Positions 16,069 through 30,585 of a DNA stretch of 64,000 nucleotides are shown here, in pieces. The DNA comes from Actinomycetes bacterium (GTDB lineage: Bacteria; Actinomycetota; Acidimicrobiia; Acidimicrobiales; RAAP-2). Every line of letters starts with the position of its first letter. Within the stretch, counting starts at the first letter, position 1. The stretch spans positions 1 through 64,000 of the forward strand of contig JAJYBR010000003.1 in NCBI GenBank assembly GCA_021778895.1, given 5' to 3'. The translations under genes and the position numbers were made by a program. Below the pieces are notes generated by a model. That model was not told the DNA's origin and searched no databases. It saw nothing but the letters and a program-made list of their open reading frames with translations.

Positions 16069-16641
16069 GTGTCCCCTCGCGACATGACCCGAGATCTGAT
16101 GCGCCACGCCATGGTCGTTCCGCTCAAAGACTTCACCGAGGCCAAGAGCCGGCTGCGCCACGGGGGCCAGCCCGATGTCGAGGCGCTGGTACAGGACCTC
16201 GCGGCCTCCGTCATCGCGAGTTGCGCGCCCCACCCCACATTCGTGCTCACCGAGAGCGATGACGTCGACGCTTTCGCGCGGCGCCGCGGGTGGGCGGTCC
16301 TGCGATCCCCCCACGGTGGCCTCAACGCGGCGTCGCAGTGGGCGTTCGGCCAACTGCAAGACGTCTTCGCACGCGTCACCTTCGTGCACGGGGACATCCA
16401 GCACCCGGCAGGAATCGCCGACCTGCCGATCACCGCAGACGTGATGATCGTGCCCGACCACCACGGAGTGGGAACGACCATCCTCTCCTTGCCAACCCAC
16501 CGGGACTTTCACATCCGCTTCGGGCCAGAGTCGGCGCGCGCTCATGTGCGTGAGGCCGCGGTCCAGGGACTGTCCTGGGAACTTCTCACCCCGTCGCCGT
16601 GGTCGCACGACGTCGACGTGCCGTCGGATCTTCAGCCATAA
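16069..16641 (+). CDS. fbiD: Phosphoenolpyruvate/2-phospholactate guanylyltransferase (F420 biosynthesis)
   Basis: A 190-residue nucleotidyltransferase of the CofC/FbiD family. The N-terminal block VVPLKDFTEAKSRL is the family GTP-binding signature (usual form VPxKxxxxAKSRL). The later motifs NAASQWAFGQL and FVHGDIQHPAGIADLP match the substrate and metal sites, although the usual D-L-P region reads HGDIQHP. It activates phosphoenolpyruvate (actinobacteria) or 2-phospholactate with GTP to build the phosphoester side of coenzyme F420. The protein is slightly shorter than typical (200-215 residues). No other F420 genes are in the window. A terminator hairpin follows. Confidence 0.85.
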   Translation: MSPRDMTRDLMRHAMVVPLKDFTEAKSRLRHGGQPDVEALVQDLAASVIASCAPHPTFVLTESDDVDAFARRRGWAVLRSPHGGLNAASQWAFGQLQDVFARVTFVHGDIQHPAGIADLPITADVMIVPDHHGVGTTILSLPTHRDFHIRFGPESARAHVREAAVQGLSWELLTPSPWSHDVDVPSDLQP

Positions 16642-16709: not shown

Positions 16710-17045
16710 CTACTTGGCTGCAGCCTTCTTGGCCGGAGCCTTCCTGGCCGGAGCCTTCCTCGCGACGGCCTTCTTGGCGACGGCCTTCTTCGCCGGAGCC
16801 TTCTTAGCGACGGCCTTCTTGGCCGGTGCCTTCCTCGCGACGGCCTTCTTGGCCGGAGCCTTCTTGGCAACCGCCTTCTTCGCCGGTGCCTTCTTCGCGA
16901 CCGCCTTCTTCGCCGGAGCCTTCTTAGCGACGGCCTTCTTGGCCGGTGCCTTCTTGGCGACCGCCTTCTTGGCCGGTGCCTTCTTGGCTACGGCCTTCTT
17001 GGCCGGAGCCTTGGCTGCCGGAGCCTTCTTCGCGGCTGTTGCCAC
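16710..17045 (-). CDS. Lysine/alanine-rich PAKKA-repeat histone-like protein
   Basis: The 111-residue product consists almost entirely of 10-residue-like units [10 protein letters not shown], with occasional Arg replacing Lys. It resembles the C-terminal tails of actinobacterial HupB/HU and of histone H1, but has no folded HU domain. A DNA- or polyphosphate-binding, nucleoid-compacting role is inferred from composition. The track start at 17072 is unlikely: AAGGAGGG lies just before GTG 17045 (VATAAKKAP), so translation most likely starts there. The plus-strand frame over the same bases (16714-17274, [12 protein letters not shown]) is the antisense of the repeat and not a membrane protein. 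Repeat number probably varies between strains by slippage or recombination. Confidence 0.85.
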
Positions 17046-17277
17046 TTTCCCTCCTTGGGACATATCACTCAATCAATCCGGAACCTCGAGACAGCCCCGA
17101 TCGGATCCGCACCGATACCCAGACACTCGTCCGACTCGCTCGACCATCCAGTCGTGCTCCCCGGCGCAGTGCCTGGTCCCTCTCCGAGGGACGAACTCCG
17201 ACCTCGTCATCGACGACGATGTGGACTCCGTCTTCTTCCTCTTTGGAAGGACACTAAAAGTTCACTCGACATGATGA

Positions 17278-18636
17278 GTGATGTCAAGCATTTCGAATCG
17301 TCGACCGTTGCGATGCGTGCGCGACGACGACGGCGTCTACCTCGGACGCTCGTCCGTCGGTGATGTGACGAGTGGGTCGGAGCGATCGACACTGGTGCTC
17401 GGTCCCTCGCGCAGCGGCAAGACGTCGTCCATCATCGTGCCGAACCTGCTCCTCACGATGCGTGCTGCGGTGACGACGTCGACCAAGGACGACGTCTTGC
17501 GCACCATCGCCGAACGACGCACCGATGGGGCCACACTCGTCTTCGATCCCTCGGGCATGGTGGCGTTGCCGCGCGGCGCGCAGCGCGTCGGCTACTCGCC
17601 CCTGCGCCAGGCGCAATCGTGGGATGGTGCGGTGCTGGCGACGCGCACGCTCACCGACGTCGCACGCCGGCCGCGAGGCGATGGTGCCGACGACCACTGG
17701 ACCGAGCGCGCCGGCGCGCTGGTCGCGCCACTGCTCCACGCCGCGTCGCTCGAGGGTGCCTCTCTCGGCCAGGTGGCGGCCCAGCTCGACCGCCGCGATC
17801 CCCAGCGCGCGGTAGCGGTGCTCAACGAGCGCTACGGCACCGAGCACCCCTCGACCGCGCTCCTGAGTGGCGTCCTCCAGACCGATGCGCGCGAACTGTC
17901 GGGCATCTGGTCGACGGCGTCCGGCCTGTTCGCGGGCCTGCGCACGGAGGCGGCTCGATCGGCGTCCCGCGATCCGGCCCTTGACCTGGACGAATTCCTG
18001 CGCGGACCCAACCAGCTGCACATCGTCTCGCCCAGCCGGGTCCAGGCCGTCTCCACCCCCCTGGTCGTCGGAGCGCTCGACGAGATCGTCCACGCCACCT
18101 ACCAGCGGCACCACCAGGGGGCCCGGCTGCTCCTCGCCCTCGACGAACTGGCCAACGTCGCTCCCCTGCCGCGACTCGCCAGCATCGTGTCCGAAGGGGG
18201 TGGGCAGGGCGTGGTGACCGTCGCCTGTCTCCAGGACCTGAGCCAGGCGCGCACGCGCTGGGGTGCGGCCGCGGCGGGATTCCTGTCGCTCTTCCCGACG
18301 ACGGTGGTGCTGCCGGGCATCGCGGACCGCGACACCCTCGAATTGATCAGCCGCCTGTCGGGGCACGTGCACCTGCCGAGCCGATCGCGGCACGCCGGGC
18401 GCGGGCGCACGTCGACGGTCTCGACGGCGTGGGTGGAGCGCGAGCGACTCGGCGTCGCCGAGGTGGCGACGGGCCGGCCGGGGTTCGCCCTCGGTCTGCG
18501 CGCTGACAAGTCGCTCGGATGGATCCGCCTGACGCCAGCTCACACAGACGCGCGCTGGCGCTCCGTCGAGCCGCCACGCACGGCGGGCTACCGCACTCGT
18601 GAGAACTCGTCGCGCCCGATGTCGCGCGAGCGCTGA
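17278..18636 (+). CDS. Soluble VirD4/TraG-like coupling ATPase (T4CP family)
   Basis: A 452-residue P-loop ATPase. Walker A is GPSRSGKTSS (about 42-51), preceded by the typical STLVLGP strand and followed by IIVPNLL. Walker B is LLLALDELANVAPLPRL (about 283), a VirD4/TraG coupling-protein signature, followed by SEGGGQGVVTVACLQDLSQARTRWG. Family members feed relaxase-DNA complexes into type IV secretion channels. Here there is no N-terminal transmembrane anchor and no VirB-type gene in the window, so it is a soluble orphan. The 3' end overlaps the convergent relaxase gene by 49 bp. Start is GTG 17278 or ATG 17281. The 232-bp region upstream has no other gene. Confidence 0.85.
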   Translation: MMSSISNRRPLRCVRDDDGVYLGRSSVGDVTSGSERSTLVLGPSRSGKTSSIIVPNLLLTMRAAVTTSTKDDVLRTIAERRTDGATLVFDPSGMVALPRGAQRVGYSPLRQAQSWDGAVLATRTLTDVARRPRGDGADDHWTERAGALVAPLLHAASLEGASLGQVAAQLDRRDPQRAVAVLNERYGTEHPSTALLSGVLQTDARELSGIWSTASGLFAGLRTEAARSASRDPALDLDEFLRGPNQLHIVSPSRVQAVSTPLVVGALDEIVHATYQRHHQGARLLLALDELANVAPLPRLASIVSEGGGQGVVTVACLQDLSQARTRWGAAAAGFLSLFPTTVVLPGIADRDTLELISRLSGHVHLPSRSRHAGRGRTSTVSTAWVERERLGVAEVATGRPGFALGLRADKSLGWIRLTPAHTDARWRSVEPPRTAGYRTRENSSRPMSRER

Positions 18637-19625
18637 GGAGCTCGCAGCCGCACCGGACCTTCGCGGACCGGCGCGCGCGCCTCATCGACCGTGAACTGGT
18701 AGCGACTGAGGCCACGCTCGAAGCGCCGCCCCGGGTGCTGGCGATCGATCACGCGGTCGACCACTCCGGGCGCAGCGCCGTAGGGGGACGCGTCGGCCCA
18801 CGCGCGGACCAGGTCCGCTCGGTGGATCGTCACGGCCCCCTCGAAGGCAGCCGCATAGGCGTGCGCGTCCACGCCGGTCGCGCTCGGCGGCTCGAGGGAG
18901 CCGATCGGCCACAGGCGGTCCCTCTCCTCGCGCCACCGCTCCATCGCCGCCTCTCGCGACCAGTGCAGCTTGGGGGCACGCCGGTCGTCGTGTCCCGGCC
19001 ATAGGGCGCGGTAGCCCTCATCGACTCCTGCGACGTGCTCGTTCCCGCCGCGTGCCCACACGCGCCAGGAGGTCGTGGCGCTGATCTCGAAGCGCAGGGC
19101 CGCGCGGTACAGGGCATCGGCCGCGGGGAGGTGGACGCGCAGCGCCCGACCGTCCAGGACTCCGGTGTGGTGCGCCGGACGGGCTCCGACGAGCACGTGA
19201 TCGTGCAGGTGCGGCTCGCCCGCGCGGCTGATCCCGTGGGTGAATCCCACGACGTGCTCCCAGGTCGCGGCCGCCCCGAAGCGCTCCCCGTCGCGGGTGA
19301 CGGGAACCACCAATGCCCGGCGCTCGAGATAGTCCAACGCCCCACCGACCGCGAGGCGCTGGGCCGCCACGAGCGCGCCCGACGACTCCGGGTCCACCGC
19401 GAGCAGGATGGAGACCGCCCGGGGTGCCGCGAACACCATGTCGTACCCCGTCACCGAGGATCTCGGCGACGTGCGCAGCACCGCGGCCACGTCGCGCTCG
19501 GACGTCGCGTCGCCTCCGCCGCGCCACCACCACCCCGCCGCGTCCCGGTGGCCTGCGAGCTCATCGGCTCGATCATTCACGAGGTAGGAGACGTCCTGGC
19601 TCTTGCGCACCAGCAGTCGGATCAC
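18588..19625 (-). CDS. Minimal TrwC/MobF-type relaxase
   Basis: The track ORF starts too far upstream; the protein begins at GTG 19625 (MIRLLVRKSQDVSYLVND), 345 residues. It shows TrwC/TraI relaxase-domain landmarks: an early Tyr (Y14, candidate nucleophile), GWWWRGGG, TGYDMVFAAPRAVSIL (usual GFDLTFSAPKSVS), and the metal-binding His cluster FTHGIS...PHLHDHVLV (H130, H141, H143). Only the relaxase domain is present; the helicase half of conjugative MobF proteins is missing. The family nicks DNA at oriT and stays covalently bound. GGAGG 5 nt before the GTG lies in a perfect hairpin. The gene follows pafBC by 31 bp and overlaps the coupling ATPase 3' end antiparallel. Site-specific DNA processing is inferred; no oriT was identified. 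Confidence 0.83.
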   Translation of the reverse strand: MIRLLVRKSQDVSYLVNDRADELAGHRDAAGWWWRGGGDATSERDVAAVLRTSPRSSVTGYDMVFAAPRAVSILLAVDPESSGALVAAQRLAVGGALDYLERRALVVPVTRDGERFGAAATWEHVVGFTHGISRAGEPHLHDHVLVGARPAHHTGVLDGRALRVHLPAADALYRAALRFEISATTSWRVWARGGNEHVAGVDEGYRALWPGHDDRRAPKLHWSREAAMERWREERDRLWPIGSLEPPSATGVDAHAYAAAFEGAVTIHRADLVRAWADASPYGAAPGVVDRVIDRQHPGRRFERGLSRYQFTVDEARAPVREGPVRLRAPQRSRDIGRDEFSRVR

Positions 19626-19642
19626 GGGTCCCTCCGGGACCC
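19626..19642 (-). promoter_or_regulatory. Hairpin covering the relaxase ribosome binding site
   Basis: On the minus strand GGGTCCC-GGA-GGGACCC forms a 7-bp perfect stem with a 3-nt loop ending directly at the relaxase GTG. The only Shine-Dalgarno sequence (GGAGG) spans the loop and stem, so folding would block translation. It may also act as a weak terminator after pafBC. Confidence 0.6.
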
Positions 19643-19656
19643 AACGGTCGGCGCCC

Positions 19657-21591
19657 TCAGAGGCTGGCGAGCATGCGTGCGGCCACGGCGTGACCCGCCT
19701 CGCGGAAGCGGGGCGTGACCACCACCGCGCCGGCTCCGGCCTCGACCATGAGCTGGTCGAGGAACCCCTCGTTGGCCACCCGCAGGCGCACCAGATGCCG
19801 GCCATCACCGAGTGCGTGCCACTGCGCACGTGGCAGGGACTCGAACAGCCAGCGCGACGATGCCTGCACCAGGACGAGGACGTCCTCGCCGACCTCGCCG
19901 ACCTGGGTGAGCCAGTTGGTCACGGTGTCGGGCGGCCGCGCCTCGTCGGCGGCCGAGCTGGCCAGGACCGCGATGATGCGATCGATCCGGAACGTGCGCC
20001 AATCGAGATTCGTGAGGCAGTAGGCCCGGGTGTACGCGTGGCCGTTGAGGAAGCGCACCTCCCGCGGCTCGATCGTGCGATCGGTGGTCTCGCCGGTGGT
20101 GCCCGAGACGTAGCGGATCTTCATGCGCTGGTGCGCCTGTGCGGCCTCCTGCACCTGCACCTCGACCTCGTCGACGACGACCTCGTCCATCTGCACCCAG
20201 TTCTGGGCCAGGCCCTCGATCTTGTCGATCACCGCGCGCACGACGGGATCGTCGTGGATCGCCAGCGCCTCGCGCAGCGCGATGTTGATCTCGAAGAGGT
20301 CCCGCCACGTGAGAGCCGGCAGCGCCGCCGTCCCCGTGACGACCACCTCGGGCACGTAGAGGGCATCCTCGGTATCCTCGTGCTCCCAGTCGTCGCACTC
20401 CTTGATCACGTGGGCGGGAAACCCGTAGTCCCCGTGGAGGGGCTCGAAGGTCACCAGGCGATCCATGATGTGGCGCACGACGTCCTCGGCCATCCCCGAG
20501 CGCTGGGCGAGGGAGCTGAGCCGCACGCCCTCGGGCTCGAGATGCACCATGTGCAAGAGCCGCAGCGCCTGACCCAGCGTGCTGTCGGTGCTCGGCGCCT
20601 CGAAGACGACCTCCCCCACTTCGGGGACGGGACCCGCGTTGACGCCCTCCAGCCAGTCGCGCAGCGCCCGCCGCAGGACCTTGGGCCCCCGGACGCGAAC
20701 GCGATCGCCGGCCCGCAGGGCGAAGCGCAGCGCCGCCCGCAGGCTCTCGAACGTCAGTGCCACGTCGACCTCGCCCGACGGTCGTGCGTGGAGGTCGGCA
20801 TGGGTGAACTGGCGCGCGATCAGGTGCGCGTAGTTCTCACTGGTCGCGAGCTGGGCACGCACGGGCGACAGAGTCGCGCCGAACTCCGGGCGCCAGGCCC
20901 GTGCCACCGAGGCCAGGTCCTCGTCGACCTCGAAGGTCTCGTCACTGACGTGGGGCATCGACGTCATGCGCGTGAGGCGGTAGCCCTTGACCTCGCTGGA
21001 TCCCCGCACCCGGGCGACGAGGTACACCACACCGTGGAAGAGCCCGATCACCAGCGGCTCGACGACGCGGGCCCGGTTGGCCGAGGAGTGGTAGTCGAAG
21101 CGGACGACGCGGTGGAGCCGTACCGCCCGCAGGATGGGGGTGAGGTACGTCGTGTCCTCGAGCCCGCTGTCGGCTCCCGGACCCTCGTTGAAGAGGCTGA
21201 ACGCCCCCGAGGCGCCGAACCCGTAGAGGCGCAGCGCCAGCTGGATGACTCGGCGCTCGTCGTCGTCCCAGTGCAGGACCGGCGCCATCACGCTGTCGGC
21301 ATCGATCCAGTAGCCCACACCACCCTCGGGCAAGGCGATCGTCTCGATCTGCCAGCCCAACTCGCGGATGCGGACCTTGTCGCGCTCGAACTTCTGGCGC
21401 ACGGCCACCGGCGAGCCCTCGTAGGCGCGAACCTTGCGCGGCGAGCGGCCCCGCTGGGGATATTCGTCGATGAGCAACTCGTTGACGATGGTGTCCTGCG
21501 AGAGAGGATGCTCCCGCGATGCGCTCTGCAAGAGCAGGGTCAGCGCCACCAGGCGCTCGCGGCTCTCCTCGACGCTGCTGCGAACGCTCAT
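19657..21591 (-). CDS. pafBC: Fused PafB-PafC WYL-domain DNA-damage regulator
   Basis: A 644-residue protein with two tandem HTH-WYL-WCX units. The N-terminal half carries the HTH (SQDTIVNELLIDEYP, FERDKVRIRELGW) and the WYL core RVVRFDYHSS...VVEPLVIGLFHGVVYLVA. The second half repeats this with a winged helix (VRLSSLAQRSGM), a degenerate WYL (QRMKIRYVSGTTGETTDRTIEPREVRFLNGHAYTRAYC) and a C-terminal WCX extension. PafB and PafC act together in actinobacteria as activator of the RecA-independent DNA-damage response; a single fused chain is known in several lineages. Residues usually bind single-stranded DNA through WYL. It lies between moaC (61 bp upstream) and the relaxase (31 bp downstream), all on one strand. 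No proteasome genes are present nearby. Confidence 0.9.
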   Translation of the reverse strand: MSVRSSVEESRERLVALTLLLQSASREHPLSQDTIVNELLIDEYPQRGRSPRKVRAYEGSPVAVRQKFERDKVRIRELGWQIETIALPEGGVGYWIDADSVMAPVLHWDDDERRVIQLALRLYGFGASGAFSLFNEGPGADSGLEDTTYLTPILRAVRLHRVVRFDYHSSANRARVVEPLVIGLFHGVVYLVARVRGSSEVKGYRLTRMTSMPHVSDETFEVDEDLASVARAWRPEFGATLSPVRAQLATSENYAHLIARQFTHADLHARPSGEVDVALTFESLRAALRFALRAGDRVRVRGPKVLRRALRDWLEGVNAGPVPEVGEVVFEAPSTDSTLGQALRLLHMVHLEPEGVRLSSLAQRSGMAEDVVRHIMDRLVTFEPLHGDYGFPAHVIKECDDWEHEDTEDALYVPEVVVTGTAALPALTWRDLFEINIALREALAIHDDPVVRAVIDKIEGLAQNWVQMDEVVVDEVEVQVQEAAQAHQRMKIRYVSGTTGETTDRTIEPREVRFLNGHAYTRAYCLTNLDWRTFRIDRIIAVLASSAADEARPPDTVTNWLTQVGEVGEDVLVLVQASSRWLFESLPRAQWHALGDGRHLVRLRVANEGFLDQLMVEAGAGAVVVTPRFREAGHAVAARMLASL

Positions 21592-21652: not shown

Positions 21653-22147
21653 TCACGTCGCGTCGGCGCCGCCGTCGCGGCGCCACAGTCCCGAGCGTCC
21701 CCCCGACTTCTCCCACAGTGCGATGTCGTGGATCGTCATGGTGCGGTCGATCGACTTGCACATGTCGTAGATCGTGAGCGCGGCGACCGAGACGGCCACC
21801 AGTGCCTCCATCTCCACGCCCGTCCGGTCCACCGCGTCGACACTGGCCTCCACGGCGATGTCCGTGTCTCCGATCGTGAAGTTCACGTAGACGTTGCCCA
21901 CGAGCACCGGGTGCGCCATCGGCAGCAGGTCCGCCGCACGCTTGGCGGCCTGGATCCCCGCCACGCGGGCCGTCGCCAGGACGTCCCCCTTACCAACCGC
22001 ATTGGTCGCCACGGCCGCCGTCGTCGTCGGCTGCATGCTCACGCGCCCGCGAGCCAGCGCTCGCCGGACCGTCGCGTCGCCGGGGCTCAGATCGCGGGGC
22101 AGCGAGCCCTCCCGGGCAATCCGGCGCGGCGGTGAGAATTCGTCCAC
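21653..22147 (-). CDS. moaC: Cyclic pyranopterin monophosphate synthase MoaC
   Basis: Converts the MoaA product to cyclic pyranopterin monophosphate in molybdenum cofactor synthesis. Family motifs are clear: KGDVLATARVAGIQAAKRAADLLPMAHPV, VEASVDAVDRTGVEMEALVAVSVAALTIYDMCKSID, and the conserved catalytic Lys of DMCKS. The N-terminus is atypical: instead of HVDxxGxxxMVDVG it begins MDEFSPPRRIAREGSLPRDLSPGDATVRRALARG, still ending in the expected A-x-G-x-V-x-M. The GTG start lies 6 nt after TAGCAT, suggesting a leaderless transcript. Length (164) is normal. MoeB at 38 kb is the only other Mo-cofactor-like gene. Confidence 0.93.
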   Translation of the reverse strand: MDEFSPPRRIAREGSLPRDLSPGDATVRRALARGRVSMQPTTTAAVATNAVGKGDVLATARVAGIQAAKRAADLLPMAHPVLVGNVYVNFTIGDTDIAVEASVDAVDRTGVEMEALVAVSVAALTIYDMCKSIDRTMTIHDIALWEKSGGRSGLWRRDGGADAT

Positions 22148-30286: not shown

Positions 30287-30585
30287 GTCGTGCATCACCC
30301 TACCGGTCGGGCCGACCGTCTCGAGGGGCTGCGGCCGTCTGACCTGGTCTTTGACCCCACACCTGCCTGCAGCAGCGTCCGCGGGCCCCGCCGGCAGCCA
30401 CAGCTCTCCGGCGATCACGGCTCGCACTCCGCCGGCTCCCACCGGTGTCCTCGTGACACCGGTGAGGCAGGACTTACTTCTAAACCGCGCCATGCTCAGC
30501 GTCCCAGAGACGCCTTACGTGGGTCGTTTCGCCCGCGGCTGGCCTCGACTTGCAACCACAGACCCGTCCGCAGCCCCGCTGCAGT
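30287..30585 (-). other. secA leader region with a hairpin
   Basis: About 300 bp between the glycosyltransferase stop and secA with no convincing gene. It contains the hairpin listed separately and a second small inverted repeat GCGTC-TCTGG-GACGC on the minus strand near 30510. The frame upstream of secA is open but has no recognisable homology. Confidence 0.5.
30441..30465 (-). promoter_or_regulatory. Hairpin in the secA leader
   Basis: CACCGGTGTC, 5-nt loop, GACACCGGTG: a 10-bp perfect stem 155 bp before the secA start. It could terminate transcription from the glycosyltransferase operon or regulate secA; no T-tract follows and no known riboswitch was recognised. Confidence 0.5.

Follow-up and report, generated by a model that had tools for sequence, protein, structure and literature searches.

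A convergent relaxase and soluble coupling ATPase conserved on Acidimicrobiales chromosomes as the putative DNA-processing half of a domesticated conjugation-type apparatus

Why does a chromosome of the Acidimicrobiales keep a relaxase and a coupling ATPase among its housekeeping genes? In the window, by which we mean the whole stretch of 64,000 nucleotides analysed here (contig JAJYBR010000003.1 of assembly GCA_021778895.1, from a large and mostly uncultured genus of Actinobacteria in this order), two such genes converge next to the gene of a PafBC-like regulator. The preliminary description of this DNA had suggested that they could be a compact, possibly domesticated DNA-processing or transfer system responding to DNA damage, and not the remnant of a decaying plasmid.

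The soluble TrwB/VirD4-type coupling ATPase is encoded on the plus strand (17317..18636) and the MobF/TrwC-type relaxase, a protein of 345 aa consisting of the relaxase domain only, on the minus strand (18588..19625). We confirmed the two open frames (17278-18636, plus; 18588-19625, minus) and their antiparallel 3' overlap of 49 bp (18588..18636) as first described, and two of the outer ends were revised. The ATPase frame is indeed open from 17278, but its actual start is probably GTG 17317, because most relatives start there in the orthologue alignment and because the preceding sequence is part of the conserved non-coding DNA that belongs to the divergently transcribed gene upstream. Position 19642, formerly given as the end of the pair, offers no start codon in the relaxase frame; the true start is GTG 19625, which is conserved in the genus. 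A fused PafB-PafC-like WYL regulator of 644 aa (19657..21591, minus strand) immediately precedes the relaxase in the same orientation, and the distance between its stop at 19657 and GTG 19625 is the 31 bp originally reported. Upstream of pafBC, moaC (21653..22147, minus strand), recognized from its translation, its conservation and the order at genus loci, forms a conserved boundary. The boundary on the ATPase side is cofC (2-phospho-L-lactate guanylyltransferase-like; 16069..16641, plus strand), a conserved neighbour that adjoins the ATPase in several families and whose match to TIGR03552 (82 bits) is under the cut-off of 105. Divergent from the ATPase, a Lys/Ala/Pro-repeat histone H1-like protein is encoded on the minus strand (16710..17072); its NCBIfam H1-like matches are weak and below cut-off, and the gene was found in most genus loci tested.

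An N-terminal membrane anchor is a usual feature of VirD4/TrwB coupling proteins. By hydropathy, no membrane-spanning segment precedes the ATPase domain in the window's protein, which scored 73.4 bits against the Pfam family T4SS-DNA_transf (PF02534; cut-off 20.1) and was also above the cut-off of TraG-D_C (PF12696); the initial view of a VirD4/TraG-type ATPase without membrane anchor is borne out by both lines of evidence. The Walker A (GPSRSGKT) and Walker B (ALDE) motifs are conserved in 22 orthologues. The closest solved folds to the predicted model (pLDDT 84) are Cag-beta and TrwB, and the model also resembles HerA-type DNA translocases, less well than TrwB.

The relaxase matched Pfam TrwC (PF08751) with 76.4 bits (cut-off 25) and missed the NCBIfam MobF equivalog cut-off (NF041492, 68.5 bits vs 100). 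Its single conserved catalytic tyrosine, Y14, stands near the N-terminus; neither this residue nor any of the three HUH histidines (H130, H141 and H143) varies across 21 aligned divergent relaxases. The trans-esterase domains of TrwC and TraI are the closest solved folds to the predicted model (pLDDT 87), with TrwC 1zm5 and TraI 8a1b as best Foldseek matches. A C-terminal helicase, usual but not universal in MobF/TrwC proteins, is absent, and together with the TrwC score this agrees with the relaxase-only protein noted at the outset. Because corresponding loci in families f22 and f38 carry relaxase-helicase fusions of about 1050 aa, comparison of these loci indicates that the short relaxase-only form is most likely derived; in families f21 and f60 the relaxase frames span 420-480 aa, and the window's genus has the relaxase-only form. 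We rejected a defence system, the ATPase having only a weak mad8 match and the relaxase none.

The convergent overlap spans 37-204 bp in every genus locus with both ends readable. In several species (e.g. L086, L097, L103), near-palindromic short repeats within it are translated from both strands into RSD/RSE repeats in both proteins. In the window, the overlap encodes the Arg/Ser-rich tails of both proteins, which are disordered in the predicted models. Arg and Ser make up fractions of 0.48 and 0.57 of the last 16 residues of the two proteins, vs 0.19 elsewhere. These tails may be nucleic-acid-binding, and their shared repeat coding may be the reason why the overlap has persisted.

Both genes were present in all 37 sampled genomes of the genus, adjacent wherever the assembly allows. 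At nearly all of these loci the order rnhB-cofC-ATPase><relaxase-pafBC-moaC is kept, with occasional insertions near rnhB or in the interval from moaC to dxs. A comparison of the pafBC-relaxase-ATPase order in related genomes had been proposed as a check, and we found it conserved across the genus and beyond. The gene order around the pair is also kept in families f21 and f31, and the convergent arrangement, as read from gene positions, occurs in at least seven families (f1, f21, f22, f31, f47, f48 and f60), with cofC and/or pafBC flanking the pair in f21, f31 and f60. Among the genus genomes listed, 95 of 99 have the relaxase, and the completeness of the remaining four is 64-83%; in a wider scan it was present in 164/172 genomes of the family, in 100/101 of those of good quality and in 21/21 genera. 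ATPase orthologues (E <= 1e-75) were found in 114 of 397 sampled Acidimicrobiales genomes, and a single genome outside the order passed this threshold in the phylum sample, only just. Most of the sampled genomes are incomplete MAGs. The pair is retained in genomes as small as 1.3-1.5 Mb.

Compared with two close named MAGs (L064 and L065), the ATPase had a dN/dS of 0.09-0.10 and the relaxase one of 0.16-0.17, calculated by a simple counting method that included the overlap without separate treatment; neighbouring housekeeping genes gave 0.04-0.28, and the pair falls within the same range. This second proposed check hence shows purifying selection on both genes. Furthermore, the pair's pairwise protein distances within the genus correlate with those of rnhB, cofC, pafBC, moaC and dxs (r 0.75-0.89), close to the 0.87-0.89 of the housekeeping genes among themselves; oppDF, which may include paralogues, is the exception (0.44). 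These correlations show vertical inheritance of the pair, as tested within the genus. Sporadic spread, decay and linked transfer or replication genes, the features of an ICE or plasmid remnant, were not found at the pair. Confinement to isolated strains and degraded copies, which the preliminary description had named as findings that would speak against its proposal, were not seen either; the conserved order and purifying selection support the compact domesticated DNA-processing or transfer module it had proposed, and not a decaying plasmid.

On the other hand, the impression that the pair stands without T4SS genes did not hold. The neighbourhood is free of VirB-type genes, as stated earlier, but the genome is not: a T4SS core cluster, conserved elsewhere on the chromosome, lies on contig C5, flanked on one side by serS and a histidine kinase/response regulator pair and on the other by a ROK kinase. 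It comprises a DUF6112 two-helix pilin-like protein (C5:269110-269391), a VirB6-like multi-TM protein (C5:269397-270500) assigned by hydropathy and position only, a VirB4 with an N-terminal membrane-near part (C5:270493-272694) and a second VirD4 (C5: about 272571-273842). Synteny of the cluster extends over the genus and to families f31, f43 and f45, and its VirB4 was found in 33/37 genus genomes, the four without a match (G001, G004, G026 and G027) all being incomplete MAGs. Of the 397 genomes, 114 have an ATPase orthologue and 114 a DUF6112 orthologue, and 106 have both (Fisher p about 5e-76, phylogeny ignored). VirB4 is encoded by a single fused ORF here (L062:10494-12695) as well as in G032 and G033, but most genus members have two consecutive ORFs, one for its N-terminal and one for its C-terminal part. 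Some members of the genus also have VirB4 sets of ICE or plasmid type (G005:C28, G009:C84, G029:C17, G030:C30 and G034:C17); some of these contigs carry TraG and a long relaxase as well, and the sets are distinct from the conserved system.

Considering all the above results, we favour, with a probability of roughly 0.6, a model in which the pair would form the DNA-processing half of a conjugation-type apparatus, domesticated, passed on vertically and fixed as a chromosomal trait since early Acidimicrobiales. Such an apparatus would correspond in bacteria to the archaeal Ced system, with a relaxase kept. From its gene content, we infer that it would transfer DNA. The relaxase would nick chromosomal DNA, remain attached to it via Y14 and pass the strand to the TrwB-like ATPase; as the relaxase is a derived form without helicase, a host helicase would do the unwinding. 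Since the ATPase has no membrane anchor, it would, as a soluble protein, bring the complex to the VirD4/VirB4/VirB6 channel, through which ssDNA might exit to neighbouring cells or the medium. PafBC may sense or coordinate the process, a speculation from gene order. Several findings weigh against this model: the pair and the T4SS cluster, whose interaction is presumed, lie at unlinked loci; the ATPase is anchorless and the cluster already has its own VirD4; no oriT was identified; and the relaxase has one conserved catalytic tyrosine and no helicase.

Pfam assigns WYL and WCX domains to the regulator, and its best solved homologue is the fused PafBC 6SJ9 (E 2e-13, nearly full length); no second pafBC copy was found in this genome. 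At nearly all loci of the genus, 7-34 bp separate pafBC from the relaxase. A link to PafBC is attractive because ssDNA activates the mycobacterial protein (PMC11804915), although pafBC could be merely a stable neighbour of the relaxase. As to the response to DNA damage initially suggested, the adjacency of pafBC speaks for it, whereas the ATPase lies on the opposite strand to pafBC and no good match to a PafBC-type (RecA-NDp-type) promoter was found upstream of the pair or the T4SS cluster, with a consensus from mycobacteria that a diverged motif may escape. A partial literature search returned no work joining relaxases with pafBC, which is weak evidence of novelty.

To our knowledge, no relaxase is known for the archaeal Ced system. 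Ced and Ted, which import DNA (PMC9905601), are like the system described here in being chromosomal, conserved small gene sets with VirB4-, VirB6- and pilin-type parts and no mobile element; ours differs in being bacterial and in having a relaxase and a TrwB-like ATPase. As in Ced, we found a fixed chromosomal locus, vertical inheritance (for the pair, within the genus) and, in one and the same genome, VirB4, VirB6-like and pilin-like parts. DNA import by Ced is UV-inducible (PMC9905601). We put forward only tentatively, and as rather improbable in this full form, that the Acidimicrobiales system is a counterpart of Ced across many families, relaxase-driven and coupled to the ssDNA-sensing PafBC, by which damaged cells would share chromosomal DNA with their neighbours for recombinational repair. 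A scheme of gonococcus-like release followed by classical competence uptake is weakened in that no ComEC (PF03772) was found in four genomes carrying the transfer system (G000, G361, G251 and G068).

Alternatively, the pair may have been domesticated away from the T4SS for chromosome biology, as an HUH nickase and a DNA-pumping ATPase that work, perhaps under PafBC control, in repair, replication or segregation, with the T4SS being a separate conserved trait. The solubility of the ATPase, the likeness of its model to HerA-type translocases and the loss of the helicase from the relaxase would all fit this explanation, as would the VirD4 that the T4SS cluster has of its own and the position of pafBC, which precedes the relaxase in the same orientation at a distance of 7-34 bp. 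However, the HerA likeness is weaker than that to TrwB, coupling-protein models being the ATPase's best matches; moreover, the ATPase and the T4SS cluster co-occur strongly over the order, and neither the pair nor the cluster has a recognizable PafBC-type promoter. We regard this alternative as conceivable but unlikely.

Still less probable, in our opinion, is that an ancestral conjugative element was frozen into the chromosome prior to the divergence of the families and still allows occasional Hfr-like transfer of segments, without a host-selected function. MobF, VirD4 and VirB4 are indeed all of conjugative-element origin, other families have kept relaxase-helicase fusions at the corresponding place, and further ICE- or plasmid-like sets exist in some genus genomes, but two unlinked loci, vertical inheritance, purifying selection and retention in genomes of 1.3-1.5 Mb point to a host benefit. 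Conjugative systems turning into protein exporters have been proposed as a frequent form of domestication (PMC3158045); that the T4SS serves protein secretion here, with the relaxase pair as a bystander or effector handler, seems nevertheless highly improbable, given that the catalytic residues, needless for protein secretion, are all kept in the 21 divergent relaxases. Finally, the decaying remnant of a plasmid or ICE, limited to a single strain, which the short relaxase and the lack of further transfer genes nearby might have suggested, is refuted by the presence in 95/99 genus genomes and throughout the family, the intact frames and the purifying selection.

Returning to the domesticated apparatus that we favour, its parts have counterparts in several known systems. 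The T4SS of the Gonococcal Genetic Island likewise combines a chromosomal relaxase, a coupling ATPase and a T4SS, and handles chromosomal ssDNA (PMC12857230). It is, however, one horizontally acquired F-like island found in a sub-population only (PMC12857230), whereas we describe two unlinked loci, syntenic across family and order and with far fewer parts. With TrwC-TrwB of R388 and TraI of F, the pair has in common the relaxase fold and catalytic motif and the coupling ATPase fold; it differs from these modules in having neither helicase, membrane anchor nor a found oriT, in lying off any plasmid or ICE, and in its converging, overlapping genes. Actinobacterial T4SS-bearing ICEs and plasmids share the set of DUF6112, VirB6-like protein, VirB4 and VirD4, but their representatives in the same order are sporadic and have relaxases of 1000-1200 aa, while the conserved system is fixed and syntenic.

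Such fixation of a relaxase, a coupling ATPase and a minimal T4SS over an order of the Actinobacteria would be a clear example of domestication in bacteria and, if true, would provide these often streamlined, largely uncultured bacteria with a built-in route of gene exchange. Our search of the literature, partial here too, found none joining the Acidimicrobiales with conjugation, T4SS and HGT, again weak evidence of novelty. A genome of the same order (G068), which we take as Acidimicrobium ferrooxidans, carries the ATPase together with a TrwC-type relaxase and the DUF6112 pilin-like gene. This is a cultured species whose type strain has a complete genome, which makes the system testable.

The non-coding block upstream of the H1-like gene (17073-17300) is strongly conserved across the genus. 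Its minus strand contains TTGACA-N17-TGAACT with fixed spacing, plus a CGCAGTGCA word. We rejected this block as an oriT candidate on account of that evenly spaced motif, which precedes the divergent H1-like gene, and found no good copies of the block's two core words near the T4SS cluster. Judged by these motifs, the block would most simply be the promoter and leader of the H1-like gene; the leader is some 180-220 nt long and could have a regulatory role. Elsewhere in the window, a raiA RNA (RF03072) was detected on the minus strand at 30330-30572 with 135 bits, well above the gathering score.
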